The position numbers were made by a program, and so were the translations under genes. Below, piece after piece: positions 14,450-21,713 of a stretch of 43,175 nt of DNA. The notes beneath the pieces are model-generated. The model was not told the origin of the DNA, did not search any database, and saw nothing but the letters and a program-made list of their open reading frames with translations. The stretch's first letter is position 1. Every line of letters begins with the position of its first letter. Source of the stretch: a virus; IMG/VR virus record IMGVR_UViG_3300031598_000007, positions 1 to 43,175 of that record; one strand, written 5' to 3'.

Positions 14450-15112
14450 TTACTTCTTACCACGCCCTTGTGTACCTGACACAGATGCACCACAGTTAGC
14501 GTAACCACCTTTGTTGTAGCTCTTACCATATGGCATCTTTGCTTTCATGGGTGATCCACCTTTACTAAAGTCCATTGCGGGAGGAAGTGTCACTGGCTTA
14601 GCTCTTTTGTTTGATCTACCCTGCTCCATAGCACGTCCAACTTTGGACAACTCTGCAGCGTCAATGCGGTCAATGATAGTTTCGTATGTAGATTTATCTA
14701 TATCGCCAGCGTCATAAGCCTTCTTAGCTTCCCTACCCAAAGCGACACGCTTGGAAGTTGGTAGAGATCGGTACACAGCCAGAGACAAAGGTTTAAGGCC
14801 GGGTTTAGTAAGCATGGCTGAAGTGTTACCTACTGCTGCCTTACCACGCTCTATATCATCTTGTGGTTTTTTATCATCAAGTTTTTTAGTAACCTTATCA
14901 TCCAGTACAACTTTACGTGGTTCTGTATTAATAGTACCGCCCATGGATTGTTCTTTTTGTTTAACCCTAGCTAACTTCCTAGCCTCCGCTTGTGCTTTCT
15001 CTAAAAGTTTTCTTTCCTTTGCGGCTAGTAGGGCATCTATCTTTTTTTTCCTTCTTGAAGATGTCGGAACTTCACCGCCTAAAAATTTACGTAACTCTTT
15101 TGCTTTACCCAT
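14450..15112 (-). CDS. Lysine-rich hypothetical protein
   Basis: 220 residues, starting after AGGAGAATTATT, the same leader as the capsid gene. The N-terminal 75 residues are extremely basic and helical (SRRKKKIDALLAAKERKLLE). The middle contains PLSLAVYRSLPTSKRVALGR and DKSTYETIIDRIDAAELSKV. The C-terminus is Gly/Lys-rich (GGSPMKAKMPYGKSYNKGGY). It may be a DNA-associated virion or assembly protein. Family not recognised. Confidence 0.7.
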   Translation of the reverse strand: MGKAKELRKFLGGEVPTSSRRKKKIDALLAAKERKLLEKAQAEARKLARVKQKEQSMGGTINTEPRKVVLDDKVTKKLDDKKPQDDIERGKAAVGNTSAMLTKPGLKPLSLAVYRSLPTSKRVALGREAKKAYDAGDIDKSTYETIIDRIDAAELSKVGRAMEQGRSNKRAKPVTLPPAMDFSKGGSPMKAKMPYGKSYNKGGYANCGASVSGTQGRGKK

Positions 15113-16217: not shown

Positions 16218-16274
16218 AAAGAAGATGTCGAGCATAGAATAGTACACCCCCCTATTTCATTACATGAAATCAAA

Positions 16275-16377
16275 CTACGTCATCATCATCACATTACGTC
16301 ATCATGTTACATCATCATCATCATCACATTACGTCATCATCATCATGTTACATCATCATCATCATCACATTACGTCA
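16275..16377. repeat. CAT-rich iteron-like array
   Basis: Runs of (CAT)n alternate with two fixed words, ACATTACGTCA and GTTACATCA. The full unit is about 41 bases (16309-16349), with a shortened unit before it (16277-16308) and a partial one after (16350-16376). TACGTCA occurs at each unit. The array sits about 60 bases upstream of the rightward promoter. It resembles origin iterons or a cluster of activator sites. Confidence 0.8.
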
Positions 16378-16432: not shown

Positions 16433-16448
16433 AGTCCAACATTGGACT
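16433..16448. repeat. Palindrome copy 1 (AGTCCAACATTGGACT)
   Basis: The only variant copy: one central base differs from the perfect palindrome AGTCCAACGTTGGACT. It abuts the promoter cassette at 16450, so a protein bound here could touch RNA polymerase. Confidence 0.85.
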
Positions 16449-16449
16449 A

Positions 16450-16504
16450 CCTACTACTACGTAGTAAAATAGTGCTTGACCCCATCAAATTTTTCTGATC
16501 TAAG
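16450..16504 (+). promoter_or_regulatory. Early rightward promoter, cassette copy 1
   Basis: Bases 16450-16480 are identical to 18488-18518. The cassette contains the palindrome TACTACGTAGTA (16455-16466) and ends in the -35 box TTGAC (16476). After a 17-base spacer comes a weak -10 (TCTAAG, 16499-16504) preceded by TGA. TGATCT and GCATCGAAA are shared at nearly the same offset in copy 2. A weak -10 plus an upstream palindrome suggests activator dependence. Confidence 0.75.
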
Positions 16505-16559: not shown

Positions 16560-17168
16560 ATGACAAATTCAGCAAACACAGATACAAACACAGCGGTTCT
16601 TAACACTCTTGAATTGATCGGAGCTGACATAGCACGACAATGGAAGTCTATAACCAAAGGTCAAGTATCTCGTTTCAATCAGTACACTAAGGCTGATGGC
16701 TTTGATATGAAACTTGGTAACCTTATGGTTACTCTTTCAGAGGAAGGTTCAGGACGTATCAAGTCAAGTAGACTTGTAGAATGTGGCATCAACATAGTTG
16801 ATAAGAGACGACGAGCTGAGGCTATGTGGTTCGTTAATAACGAAGTTGATTGCAGGGAATTCATTGCTAAAAGCAAAAGAGGTTACACATCACTTACATC
16901 ATTGCAACTTGCAATGTCAAAGGTTGACAATGATTCTGCACCAAACCCAGACAAGCCAGAGGCTTCAGGAAAGCTTGAGCCAGCTCACAACTTTATTGAT
17001 GCAACACCAGAAACTAGCGAAGCTAAAGTTTACACAAAAGAGACAATCTTTAGAGACTTGATTGCAATCTGTAAAGAAAGTGATGTAGACATTATGGATA
17101 TAGCAGAAATGCTTCTAAGAGAAGCTGATGCGATTGAGGTAGATACTCCTGATGCTATAGCGGCATAA
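16560..17168 (+). CDS. First rightward early protein, unknown function
   Basis: 202 residues from the ATG at 16560. An in-frame start farther upstream would lie inside the promoter, so this start is preferred; TAGGAAAA lies upstream. Sequence: MTNSANTDTNTAVLNTLELI, then SRLVECGINIVDKRRRAEAM and a Pro/Ala/Ser linker, then an acidic helical end (ESDVDIMDIAEMLLREADAI). No family recognised. As the first gene after the control region it could be a regulator or host takeover protein, but no clear helix-turn-helix is visible. Confidence 0.75.
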   Translation: MTNSANTDTNTAVLNTLELIGADIARQWKSITKGQVSRFNQYTKADGFDMKLGNLMVTLSEEGSGRIKSSRLVECGINIVDKRRRAEAMWFVNNEVDCREFIAKSKRGYTSLTSLQLAMSKVDNDSAPNPDKPEASGKLEPAHNFIDATPETSEAKVYTKETIFRDLIAICKESDVDIMDIAEMLLREADAIEVDTPDAIAA

Positions 17169-17173
17169 CATAA

Positions 17174-17230
17174 GTAACCTTATAGGTTACATTAGGCTTA
17201 CTCCCTAGCTTAGTGTAACTTTATAAGTTA
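17174..17230. repeat. Two related hairpins with a TTATA loop
   Basis: GTAACC-TTATA-GGTTAC (17174-17190) and TAACT-TTATA-AGTTA (17216-17230). Sequences after each are also related (ATTAGGCTTACTCCC versus CTTAG, palindrome, TTACTTCC). The first looks like a degenerate copy of the second module that lacks the 16-bp palindrome. Confidence 0.65.
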
Positions 17231-17234
17231 ACTT

Positions 17235-17250
17235 AGTCCAACGTTGGACT
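17235..17250. repeat. Palindrome copy 2 with RBS cassette
   Basis: Perfect AGTCCAACGTTGGACT followed by TACTTCCTGAAAGGAAA and an ATG at 17274. TTCC and GGAA in that leader can pair across TGAAA and would cover the Shine-Dalgarno. The same cassette precedes the next two genes. Confidence 0.9.
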
Positions 17251-17273
17251 TACTTCCTGAAAGGAAAAATAAA

Positions 17274-17444
17274 ATGCATAAGGTTTTAAATAAATTTATG
17301 ATTGATCCAACAGAAAAAAATGCTGTAAGATTAATATCTTATATTAATAAGCATCCATTCTCAATGTTAACGGCTTCTACTTATGTCAATGAGATTATCG
17401 GACAAGCCAGAGAAATTGCAGGTTGGAGAATCTACAAAGCTTAA
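17274..17444 (+). CDS. Small early protein, unknown function
   Basis: 56 residues: MHKVLNKFMIDPTEKNAVRL, ISYINKHPFSMLTASTYVNE, IIGQAREIAGWRIYKA. The ATG at 17274 follows GAAAGGAAAAATAAA. An upstream TTG lies inside the palindrome and is unlikely. Helical, basic. One of three consecutive tiny genes with identical 36-bp leaders. Confidence 0.7.
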   Translation: MHKVLNKFMIDPTEKNAVRLISYINKHPFSMLTASTYVNEIIGQAREIAGWRIYKA

Positions 17445-17467
17445 ATGAAATAAATGATTTAACAACT

Positions 17468-17483
17468 AGTCCAACGTTGGACT
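17468..17483. repeat. Palindrome copy 3 with RBS cassette
   Basis: Perfect AGTCCAACGTTGGACT followed by TACTTCCTGAAAGGAAA and an ATG at 17505. Leader identical to copy 2 up to the start codon region. Confidence 0.9.
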
Positions 17484-17504
17484 TACTTCCTGAAAGGAAA
17501 AACA

Positions 17505-17696
17505 ATGCTAATCGAACGTACTTCAAGACTATCAGGTGATGTACATGTCATGGATATTGATGTGTTACCTATACAAATAACGTTGTGGGAACAGGGTGAA
17601 CTTGTTCAAAATGCTATGCCTGAGCTATCTGCAGATGAACGTGAGTTTATCATGACTGGTATAACTCCCACAGAGTGGGATGAATTTTTTAACTAG
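17505..17696 (+). CDS. Small acidic early protein, unknown function
   Basis: 63 residues: MLIERTSRLSGDVHVMDIDV, LPIQITLWEQGELVQNAMPE, LSADEREFIMTGITPTEWDE-FFN. Predicted beta strands then an acidic helix. The phrase 'LSADEREFIMTGITPTEWDEFF' resembles small proteins in marine phages and plasmids that I recognise only as hypothetical. Its stop overlaps the next palindrome by two bases. Confidence 0.75.
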   Translation: MLIERTSRLSGDVHVMDIDVLPIQITLWEQGELVQNAMPELSADEREFIMTGITPTEWDEFFN

Positions 17697-17710
17697 TCCA
17701 ACGTTGGACT
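17695..17710. repeat. Palindrome copy 4 with RBS cassette
   Basis: Perfect AGTCCAACGTTGGACT, starting in the stop codon of the preceding gene, followed by TACTTCCTGAAAGGAAA and an ATG at 17733. Confidence 0.9.
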
Positions 17711-17732
17711 TACTTCCTGAAAGGAAATTATT

Positions 17733-18487: not shown

Positions 18488-18542
18488 CCTACTACTACGT
18501 AGTAAAATAGTGCTTGACAGCAGGTTAGTTATCTGATCTGTT
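18488..18542 (+). promoter_or_regulatory. Early rightward promoter, cassette copy 2
   Basis: Bases 18488-18518 repeat 16450-16480 exactly, including the palindrome TACTACGTAGTA (18493-18504) and TTGACA (18514-18519). Seventeen bases further is TCTGTT, preceded by TGA. TGATCT and GCATCGAAA are shared with copy 1. The 31-base identity in a non-coding gap between two unrelated genes is strong evidence for function. Confidence 0.75.
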
Positions 18543-18568: not shown

Positions 18569-18584
18569 AGTCCAACGTTGGACT
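18569..18584. repeat. Palindrome copy 5
   Basis: Perfect AGTCCAACGTTGGACT, 50 bases downstream of the second promoter's -35 box, so it probably lies just after the transcription start. It precedes a different leader (AGTGGAAAAGGAAATACACA). Confidence 0.9.
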
Positions 18585-19373: not shown

Positions 19374-19529
19374 ATGAAAAAGAAACCTGTGGTCATAAAC
19401 CCTGTGGCAAAAGCTATGTTACAAAACAGGCAATCCCCACAGGTTGTCCCACCTAAGAAGGGTGGCAAAGCTAAACGTAATCGTAAGGAGAATAATATCA
19501 ATGCAATACGAGATGCGAAACTTTATTAA
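19374..19529 (+). CDS. Tiny basic protein, unknown function
   Basis: 51 residues: MKKKPVVINPVAKAMLQNRQ, SPQVVPPKKGGKAKRNRKEN, NINAIRDAKLY. Starts on the base after the preceding stop (TAAATG). The 'KKKPVV.NPVAKAL..NR...QVV' opening is one I know from small marine-phage proteins. Probably nucleic-acid binding; unproven. Confidence 0.65.
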   Translation: MKKKPVVINPVAKAMLQNRQSPQVVPPKKGGKAKRNRKENNINAIRDAKLY

Positions 19530-19668
19530 GTTTTCGAAGAAAGTTAAGTCCAACGTTGGACTAACGAAAAAGTATTCCGATGAATGGAAACGCAAACGTA
19601 AGATACAACGTCAAGCTAAACTAAAATTACAATTAGGAACAATCAATTATAAAAGTAAGGTAGGATAA
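19501..19668 (+). CDS. Tiny basic protein carrying a palindrome in its coding sequence
   Basis: 55 residues: MQYEMRNFIKFSKKVKSNVG, LTKKYSDEWKRKRKIQRQAK, LKLQLGTINYKSKVG. ATG at 19501 is preceded by GGAGAATAATATCA. It overlaps the previous gene by 29 bases. Palindrome copy 6 lies inside and encodes KSNVGLT. Function unknown. Confidence 0.6.
   Translation: MQYEMRNFIKFSKKVKSNVGLTKKYSDEWKRKRKIQRQAKLKLQLGTINYKSKVG
19547..19562. repeat. Palindrome copy 6, within a coding sequence
   Basis: Perfect AGTCCAACGTTGGACT read in frame as part of KSNVGLT in the 55-residue gene. There is no start codon just downstream, so its role here cannot be as an RBS leader. Confidence 0.9.
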
Positions 19669-19669
19669 C

Positions 19670-20296
19670 ATGTATGTAAGAGACGTAGCAGAAATTAAAG
19701 CATTCGTTAAGTGGCGTGGCACTGATGCCTTTGTAAACACTGGCTTGTTTGTATTACTAACAATACAAGCTGGCTTGTCTACTGTTAAGGGTAGCATGAT
19801 TAAGGTAGAATCTGATGGTGTTGATGCCAACTGTTTGTGGGGTAAGAAGGGTGATGGTTACACATATCTACAAGATAATGCTGATTACTTGTATGGCAAG
19901 ATGTATGACATAGCTGACAAGAAAGGTTATGAGAGTGTGGAAGCCTGCTCCGATGTAGTGCAACTGTTTATGCAAGTACCAAACTTGGGTATGGTCAAGG
20001 CATCTTTCCTTGCACAATGCTTAGGCTTTAACGTAGCTTGTATTGATAGTCACAATATCACACGATTGGGTTTAAATCCTAACGTAGTTAAGACACCACC
20101 TGCAACGATGAAACCTGCAACTGTTCGTAAGAAGGTTGAGGCATACGTTACATTGACACAAGAGGAGGGTACAAGATACTGGTGGGACACATGGTGTGAC
20201 TACGTAGCTGGAAACCGCGCCAATCGTGCCTTAGATACTGGTGATGTTGTATCTAGGTTTCACGTTGAGTGTATAACACATGGATTTGAAGCATGA
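19670..20296 (+). CDS. Putative helix-hairpin-helix (DNA glycosylase-like) protein
   Basis: 208 residues. Residues 103-130 (VPNLGMVKASFLAQCLGF, then NVACIDSHNITRLGL) match the plan of an HhH-GPD fold: a hairpin with a 'PxLGxxKA' turn followed by a conserved Asp (D126) in IDSHN, like the 'VDTHV' of base-excision glycosylases. The N-terminus (FVLLTIQAGLSTVKGS) and C-terminus (RYWWDTWCDYVAGNRANRAL) are unfamiliar. No Fe-S cysteines are seen at the end. DNA repair or modification is plausible; inference. Confidence 0.6.
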   Translation: MYVRDVAEIKAFVKWRGTDAFVNTGLFVLLTIQAGLSTVKGSMIKVESDGVDANCLWGKKGDGYTYLQDNADYLYGKMYDIADKKGYESVEACSDVVQLFMQVPNLGMVKASFLAQCLGFNVACIDSHNITRLGLNPNVVKTPPATMKPATVRKKVEAYVTLTQEEGTRYWWDTWCDYVAGNRANRALDTGDVVSRFHVECITHGFEA

Positions 20297-20562
20297 AAAT
20301 ATTAAGTGAACACGAGTTGTGCGATTTTATTAATGACACCTTGGGTGCATGGGTAGATGAGGAAATGAATGAGAACCCTATTGATGAGGGTAACATATCA
20401 AGGGCACAACGTTCCGCTGAGACGTGGGACAGTTTCATTGCTGACTTAGTGCTATGGATGCACGTTAAGTATGAGAGCAACCCCGATGGGATGTTTTCAA
20501 AGGCTGTTGATAAGTCCAACGTTGGACTAACAATAGAAGATTTTATATTAGGAGAAGATTAG
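20293..20562 (+). CDS. Small acidic protein carrying a palindrome
   Basis: 89 residues, MKILSEHELCDFINDTLGAW, WDSFIADLVLWMHVKYESNP, ending VGLTIEDFILGED. ATGA overlap with the previous gene. Palindrome copy 7 encodes the same KSNVGLT as in copy 6, at its C-terminus. Function unknown. Confidence 0.65.
   Translation: MKILSEHELCDFINDTLGAWVDEEMNENPIDEGNISRAQRSAETWDSFIADLVLWMHVKYESNPDGMFSKAVDKSNVGLTIEDFILGED
20513..20528. repeat. Palindrome copy 7, within a coding sequence
   Basis: Perfect AGTCCAACGTTGGACT, in frame as KSNVGLT near the end of the 89-residue gene, 36 bases upstream of the next ATG at 20564. Last copy in the window. Confidence 0.9.
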
Positions 20563-21024: not shown

Positions 21025-21100
21025 CGATGACCCATGTGATGACTGGTCACGTACACCTTTACCGAAACCAATAAAACAACAGGAGAATAACAATGACTAA
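20999..21100 (+). CDS. Very short acidic peptide gene
   Basis: 33 residues: MKHQPYYSDDDPCDDWSRTP then LPKPIKQQENNND. It overlaps the previous gene by 26 bases and the next by 8. The composition (YYSDDDPCDDW) is protein-like, and the continuous overlap chain supports translation, but at this length it could be chance. Confidence 0.4.
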   Translation: MKHQPYYSDDDPCDDWSRTPLPKPIKQQENNND

Positions 21101-21713
21101 AGCAATACATATACAAAGTATATTTCAAATGATACTAAAGTTATTAGAACAAAAAGATATGGAAATAGATGAGGCTTTTACTGAGGGTGTAGAATTTGAT
21201 GCACAAAACCATGAAGATAAACGCTTTGCGTTAGCCGAAAGGGATAGGGTGCTTATTGATAAAGGCTACACGAAAGGTTTGCGTGAAGGTATTGGGTTTG
21301 GATATGATAAAGGCTACGATATAGGGAAAATTGCGCATCAAACCAACCGCACCGCCTCTTACGATGCAGGCTGGGAAGAAGGCTGTGAAGAAGGCTATGA
21401 AGAAGGCTACGATGCAGGCTGGTGTGAAGGCTATGATAGAGGCCACGCTAATGGTGAAGAAGAGCGATTGGAATTAGCAGATGCTTTAAGTAAAGCAGAG
21501 GAAAATGACTATGAAGCAGGCTGGGAAGAAGGCTGTGAAGAAGGCCACGATGCAGGCTGTAAAGAAGGCTATGAAGAAGGTCACGATGCAGGCTGGGATG
21601 AAGGCTATGATAAAGGCCACGATAATGGGGAAGATAGAGGCTTTAATAATGCCTGTCTTGCTATATCTACCTTTGCCTTAAATAAAGCAGAGGAAAATGA
21701 CGATGAAGAATGA
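21093..21713 (+). CDS. Glycine-every-fourth-residue (GX3) repeat protein
   Basis: 206 residues, start after AGGAGAATAACA. Gly occurs at every fourth position in three runs: six (58-78), eight (93-121) and eleven (143-183), with spacers such as W-E-E, Y-D-A, H-D-K. This is the GX3 pattern of Yae1/Lto1 ('deca-GX3') and of the FliH-type GxxxG helices, which pack helix to helix or bind partners. It is strongly acidic. DNA repeats (GGCTATGAAGAAGGC-like units) indicate recent expansion. Role unknown; the next gene encodes a membrane peptide. Confidence 0.75.
   Translation: MTKAIHIQSIFQMILKLLEQKDMEIDEAFTEGVEFDAQNHEDKRFALAERDRVLIDKGYTKGLREGIGFGYDKGYDIGKIAHQTNRTASYDAGWEEGCEEGYEEGYDAGWCEGYDRGHANGEEERLELADALSKAEENDYEAGWEEGCEEGHDAGCKEGYEEGHDAGWDEGYDKGHDNGEDRGFNNACLAISTFALNKAEENDDEE

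Follow-up and report, generated by a model that had tools for sequence, protein, structure and literature searches.

The locus raises the question of why two genes with otherwise dissimilar products encode the same peptide, KSNVGLT, over the same 16-bp palindrome: whether selection maintains the DNA site or the peptide and, if the site, what would read it. The window (the whole stretch of DNA that was analysed) is a 43,175-base virus record, IMG/VR IMGVR_UViG_3300031598_000007, positions 1 to 43,175, and by its sequence an HMO-2011-type marine podovirus. In its DNA polymerase it shares 77% identity with Roseobacter phage CRP-345 and 67% with HMO-2011, and its gene order (early genes, integrase, primase, helicase, polymerase) is common to the HMO-2011-type group.

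Seven copies of a palindrome and their reading frame

The palindrome, AGTCCAACGTTGGACT, is present in seven copies, six exact and one with one mismatch, between positions 16433 and 20528, and is limited to this part of the window (16.4–20.5 kb). A scan allowing up to three mismatches gave eight matches (six exact, one with one mismatch, one with three), compared with 0.09 expected from dinucleotide shuffles, and eight was reached in 0 of 100 shuffles; the match with three mismatches (14634–14649) lies within a leftward gene and may be due to chance. All copies and features located here are given on the + strand. Copy 1 (16433–16448; AGTCCAACATTGGACT), with its centre reversed relative to most other sites, lies upstream of a promoter-like block (16450–16501; palindrome TACTACGTAGTA and TTGACC) that is the putative promoter of the first early gene, g1 (16560–17168; 202 aa, with Thr at residue 113), proposed below as the reader of the site. 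The next three copies are exact and intergenic: copy 2 (17235–17250) lies directly upstream of a ribosome-binding site, copy 3 (17468–17483) is in a similar site-plus-RBS unit, and copy 4 (17695–17710), again in such a unit, overlaps the TAG that ends the ORF before it. The longer unit common to copies 2–4 (17224–17727), consisting of the site and the ribosome-binding region TACTTCCTGAAAGGAAA, looks like a local duplication. Copy 5 (18569–18584; exact) is downstream of a second promoter-like block (18488–18539; TTGACA) that is 85% identical to the first. Copies 6 (19547–19562) and 7 (20513–20528; with the next start codon ~36 nt downstream), both exact, lie within genes of 55 aa (19501–19668) and 89 aa (20293–20562), respectively.

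Three further features of this region were observed. Both promoter-like blocks carry the 12-bp palindrome TACTACGTAGTA directly before TTGAC, an arrangement kept in the clade of the window; the divergent intergenic region directly upstream of copy 1 (16264–16377) contains tandem ATCATCATC-type repeats with GTTACATCA or CACATTACGTCA units; and an ORF at 21093–21713 consists largely of 12-nt repeats that translate into Gly/Glu/Asp/Tyr-rich tetrapeptides.

The first-pass annotation had described copies 6 and 7 as one palindrome preserved in the same reading frame of two proteins with no other similarity, and this description holds in each of its parts. Both copies are read as AAG TCC AAC GTT GGA CTA AC(G/A) in the ORFs 19501–19668 and 20293–20562, and BLASTP aligns only FSK.V.KSNVGLT between the two proteins (E = 4e-4), which is mostly the common heptapeptide. 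Likeness between the 30 nt upstream of copy 6 and of copy 7 is not above expectation (p = 0.067, shuffling); when pairs were drawn at random from the region, 344 of 5000 scored as high.

The common frame of copies 6 and 7 is no coincidence. The flanked copies read TAAGTCCAACGTTGGACTAA. A TAA opens one frame and closes another; in copies 5, 6, and 7 both of these frames hit a stop (TAA GTC.. or ..GAC TAA/TAG) and only the KSNVGL frame is open. This is why KSNVGLT appears in both genes: read in either of the remaining frames, the flanked site is interrupted by a stop. Copies 2–4, which are flanked by T..T, have a stop in the KSNVGL frame and are intergenic. In relatives the site is also found inside g1; of 62 such matches, 61 are in the KSNVGL frame and the remaining one is chance-like.

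Site and peptide in related phages

That the DNA site, not the peptide, is the object of selection had also been proposed from the window itself, along with the expectation of frozen third bases across relatives, and orthologues of the copy-6 gene bear this out in a more stringent test. By its 18 orthologues (17 in fetched loci plus that of the window; 12 distinct), all with an in-frame site, the copy-6 gene is judged to be real. The site is kept in 18 of 18 and the peptide varies with it: KSNVGL (AACGTT, AATGTT), KSNIGL (AACATT), KSDVGL (GATGTC), KSDDGL (GATGAC), VSNVGQ in CRP-345 (TGTCC..GGACA), and KSNVGP in locus L075 (AGTCC..GGACC). The AAG, TCC, and GGA codons are invariant, the opposite of a conserved peptide with freely varying codons, and among the 12 distinct orthologues site columns with a constant amino acid use one codon in 3 of 3 cases compared with 4 of 11 outside the site, although the columns are few. 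This codon test is confined to copy 6 because the only orthologue found for the copy-7 gene is in the near-identical contig L018. A stronger argument than the frozen codons is that amino acids change jointly on both sides of the dyad, the N/D, V/I/D, and L/Q/P changes all maintaining it. These orthologues demonstrate selection that, almost certainly, acts at the level of the site.

The suggestion that the palindrome had inserted as a mobile mini-element and been kept in frame was rejected, the copy-6 site being in place in all 18 orthologues and common flanks being limited to copies 2–4, with none between the two genes. Likewise rejected, as extremely improbable, is KSNVGLT as a functional motif with the palindrome as its by-product: a similar peptide is encoded by g1 of relatives and by the copy-6 and copy-7 genes, which are unrelated to one another, and the g1-internal matches keep to one frame, but the majority of copies are intergenic, the motif is absent from several g1 proteins of the window's clade, and the peptide changes in the 18 copy-6 orthologues, made along with the site, contradict it.

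Exact scans of IMG/VR with three spellings of the site gave 27, 78, and 36 stretches, many, not all, from relatives of the window. Most relatives have 3–9 sites in the early region or operon, usually in one orientation; in 18 larger records the matches listed cluster to within a few kb, record ends aside. The site patterns held GTCC and GGAC constant, so that pairs 2–5 are uninformative on covariation, and five chance-looking matches, matches with GGCTTC, and near-identical contexts were dropped before counting. Two main dialects are found, AGTCCA..TGGACT (A) and AGTCCG..CGGACT (G), as well as the end-base variants AGTCC..GGACC, GGTCC..GGACA, and TGTCC..GGACA; in one locus with six sites (L023), four have switched dialect, a fifth is mixed, and one has the old spelling. 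Sites are found in four kinds of position: before the promoter-like sequence of g1 (copy 1, which follows the dialect), after a TATA(A/C/T)T hexamer (up to 16 nt upstream of the site in 19 of 244 distinct contexts), intergenic before a ribosome-binding site (often directly upstream of it), and inside genes.

Sites inside and downstream of g1 are directional, both in their centre (ATGT:ACAT, 96:18) and in their end pair (A..C:G..T, 60:8). Copies upstream of g1 are mixed (20 centres forward and 9 reversed; end pair 17:4), and the idea that copy 1 is always reversed was rejected on these counts. Across 155 site contexts, the bases that flank the dyad can pair in 3 of the 67 sites with a complementary end pair vs. 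47 of the 88 without one (p = 8e-12). A perfect 18-bp palindrome is therefore avoided, which would fit a hairpin limited to six pairs or selection favoring a pair of dissimilar half-sites with moderate affinity. Flank orientation (A..A or T..T) is unlinked to the direction of transcription in the same contexts.

Among named isolates, tblastn found g1 only in CRP-1, CRP-345, and HMO-2011 (4 records), and in all three g1 and sites are both present. Neither g1 (tblastn) nor sites (in the stretches read, which for CRP-3 are the first 12 kb) were found in CRP-2, CRP-3, CRP-207, and CRP-603, CRP-2 and CRP-603 having one chance-like GTCC-N6-GGAC match each, and sites are absent from the stretch read of the more distant ICBM2; the polymerase relatives HTVC033P, CRP-212, CRP-235, and CRP-738 are outside the set of isolates read for sites. 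An 80-kb contig, IMGVR_UViG_3300046167_000032 (loci L141 and L161; ~53–55 kb in named relatives), has g1 and a second, partial g1 at the contig end and is probably a redundant assembly. The literature searched gave no match to the 16-mer, and the HMO-2011 literature no title on a comparable system.

The first early gene as candidate reader of the site

The site co-varies with g1; neither a cognate protein nor the dialect switching or the directionality had been anticipated in the first-pass annotation. Exactly one of 175 variable columns in g1, residue 113, separates A- from G-dialect loci: all 34 A loci have Thr there, and all 13 G loci have Ser or Cys; 0 of 981 variable columns in five other genes do so. 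A search by g1 peptide pattern, blind to the sites and to residue 113, gave 80 loci, many on contigs not previously found. In the pooled and deduplicated set, loci with Thr113 (61) have A..T at 289 of 292 sites and loci with Ser113 and Lys117 (15) have G..C at 67 of 70. The 45 sites of loci with Ser113 and Arg117 (10) are mixed (22 G..T, 21 A..T, 1 A..C, 1 G..C), and a diverged HMO-like type of g1 (4 loci) has G..C at 17 of 17 sites. Residue 113 is unreadable in five deduplicated loci; exceptions are L186, with Ser113 yet mostly A sites, and L163 and L166, with odd sites.

Parallel changes were counted on a tree of 67 g1 proteins, which has few columns; residues from ~105 on (including the helix with residue 113) were left out of it, as were loci with fewer than two sites or with a truncated or identical g1. 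On this tree the dialect changes 13 times and residue 113 changes 12 times; among eight independent pairs on starred branches, a mean of 6.8 agree, 0 oppose, and 1.2 show no change (p = 0.0156). Switches are found between close relatives (sister pairs L145/L148, and L139 with L142/L131). Because the dialect tracks residue 113 and the changes run in parallel on the tree, g1 is the likely reader of the site, an assignment that can be made with considerable confidence, and residue 113 is predicted to set base 6 of the half-site.

The predicted structure of g1 has a confident, all-helical core (AlphaFold, pLDDT 91), and the full model places residue 113 at the N-terminus of helix 112–125, with residue 117 one turn on. 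The g1 of the window has no Pfam or PHROG match, and 35 g1 proteins have only scattered weak matches in Pfam/PHROGs. A sequence search of the PDB gave a best E of 0.61, Foldseek against the PDB gave nothing at E 0.001 with the full or the core model and one viral match (S4S2E1, 27% identity), and neither Foldseek nor VIA returned a convincing known DNA-binding fold.

In many other clades a ~95-nt conserved, structured RNA-like element (consensus GAGTTT..variable stem..TGCARY..GAAACGRC..CAGAGGAT) lies between copy 1 and g1 (L145:4761-4859:+, L044:5466-5564:-, HMO-2011 L225:2941-3039:+, and 24 more). Across its 27 distinct sequences, 13 pairs hold without exception (351 of 351 cells) and six pairs have two-sided changes; it has no Rfam family at gathering score, two low-threshold searches gave nothing at the element, and a model search of the window did not find it. 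In the g1 leaders of L144, L145, L148, L153, L160, and L205, in other clades, a long inverted repeat resembling a hairpin (e.g., GTTTATAAAGAGAA..TTCTCTCATATAAAC) lies downstream of a TTGAC promoter-like sequence and before the start of g1.

Candidate mechanisms and comparison with known systems

The sites most likely serve as dispersed directional operators that would work like stoperators with an apparently unrelated protein. Under this proposal g1 would be expressed at once from the early promoter; a g1 dimer would then bind sites dispersed through the early DNA (near promoters, in intergenic positions before ribosome-binding sites, and inside genes) and block initiation and elongation, so that early transcription would be damped or timed by a stoperator-like action restricted to the early operon. 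Duplex DNA binding, dimerization, repression, and the roadblock are all inferred. Some sites would fall inside reading frames because sites are needed at certain places, and the encoded peptide S-N/D-V-G-L/P would be a by-product, invariably read in the single frame that lacks stops and bulky residues. The model as a whole, with the palindrome as g1 recognition site and operator, is favored with modest confidence, and duplex DNA rather than RNA as the target with slightly more. Copy 1, which lies upstream of the promoter-like sequence yet follows the dialect, argues for DNA; the absence of a recognized DNA-binding fold in g1 and the mixed direction of the upstream copies are points against the operator model.

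The main rival, modelled on the many-copy boxB or RegA-type operator and unlikely although it deserves to be taken seriously, is that g1 binds AGUCCR-AUGU-YGGACU hairpins (6-bp stem, 4-nt loop) in early mRNA and so controls translation, processing, or termination. The direction bias, with the centre fixed on the sense strand (96:18), the non-pairing directly outside the stem (3/67 vs. 47/88), and the G.U rather than A.C hybrids at pair 6 (22 vs. 1 in the Ser + Arg loci) fit an RNA hairpin as well as or better than they fit a DNA operator. The predicted stability of −5.2 to −7.8 kcal/mol (six 16-mers folded) and the frequent position of sites directly before ribosome-binding sites also count in its favor. 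Against it stand copy 1, the occurrence of copies upstream of g1 in either orientation where no leftward transcript is known, the many sites deep within g1 and far from a start codon, and the composition of end pair 1, which is more often A.C than G.U (60:8) and so is not a wobble pair. Marginally less probable still is the fuller version, in which g1 would found a new class of regulator: it would read a 16-nt early-mRNA hairpin at as many as nine positions in each operon, some within its own coding sequence, and a single protein would thereby control a whole polycistronic message and rewrite amino acids where a copy lies in a gene, with the stem end unpaired by rule, the loop AUGU on the sense strand, and a Thr/Ser residue reading the loop-closing pair.

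Lysogenic immunity, with g1 as prophage repressor and the sites as immunity operators and stoperators, is a good deal less probable. It would suit the tyrosine integrase (PF00589) of the window and the integrase of relatives, and the dialect switching resembles shifts of immunity specificity. However, g1 heads the lytic early operon, and in a search of 84,980 bacterial and archaeal species, each represented by one genome, 0 of 39 candidate g1 stretches were confirmed as prophage g1. Furthermore, integration is reported for CRP-3 (PMC9038755), so that lysogeny in the HMO-2011-type group seemingly has no need of g1, since CRP-3 has neither g1 nor sites in its first 12 kb. Five loci found through their DNA polymerase in the same bacterial and archaeal genomes lack sites; four of these represent just two phage contigs, each of which had been placed in two MAG bins. 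These pairs (L215/L216 and L217/L218) are contigs of the same name and length in the unrelated MAGs Flavobacteriales TMED123 and Neomarinimicrobiota MED589 and for this reason look like phage contigs misplaced in bacterial genomes.

Partition or replication sites of the parS or KorB-operator kind, bound by a ParB-type protein, are very improbable: the 16-bp palindrome in several copies near replication genes, the reading of base 6 by residue 201 in ParB/Noc (PMC7383237), and KorB as the top row of one structural comparison of the full g1 model (Z = 3.6) would favor them, but this Z is within the common range and KorB does not appear in the results listed for the better core model, Pfam scans of 35 g1 proteins contain no ParB domain at E up to 1, and the direction bias is unexpected. 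Homology of g1 to KorB was dropped after hhalign on a single KorB sequence, that of R751, gave E = 0.71, compared with 0.41 for an unrelated LysR control.

The phage group concerned is among the commonest in the ocean, and because g1 and the sites are unannotated in the records and libraries examined, it acquires a candidate for an early regulator whose code can be tested. The switches form a natural series of about a dozen parallel changes of regulator and site at one residue, with a mixed intermediate class, and the locus illustrates a protein sequence dictated by an embedded regulatory site.

In phage lambda, N acts with short hairpins (boxB, in nut) on early transcripts; nut sites are few and carry boxA. 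The system described here shares with N/boxB a possible sense-oriented hairpin on early transcripts and a phage-specific pairing of protein and site; unlike nut, it has up to nine copies, some in genes and one upstream of a promoter-like sequence. Lambda operators likewise have two unlike half-sites but are clustered at promoters, whereas the sites here are strung along the operon and within genes. A closer parallel in code is offered by ParB/Noc, in which (PMC7383237) a single residue controls base 6 and permissive partners allow a mixed intermediate state. As with parS/NBS and KorB operators, the sites are 16-bp palindromes in several copies with a single residue linked to base 6; unlike in those systems, they are directional, and g1 has no detectable homology to the proteins and no detectable N-terminal ParB CTPase domain.

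The stoperators of Cluster A mycobacteriophages (L5 gp71, TipsytheTRex repressor) are 13-bp asymmetric sites that are bound by a monomer, dispersed genome-wide, and phage-specific (PMC9283540; PMC6550527). In such systems a bound repressor halts elongation, as g1 would under the operator model. The sites described here differ from them in being 16-bp dyads confined to the early region, with a putative reader that is the product of the first early gene and matched no known family in the searches. They resemble them in their many copies at promoters and between genes (seven in the window, where binding is inferred), in one predominant orientation to transcription (96:18 and 60:8 inside and downstream of g1), and in a site specificity that differs between related phages.
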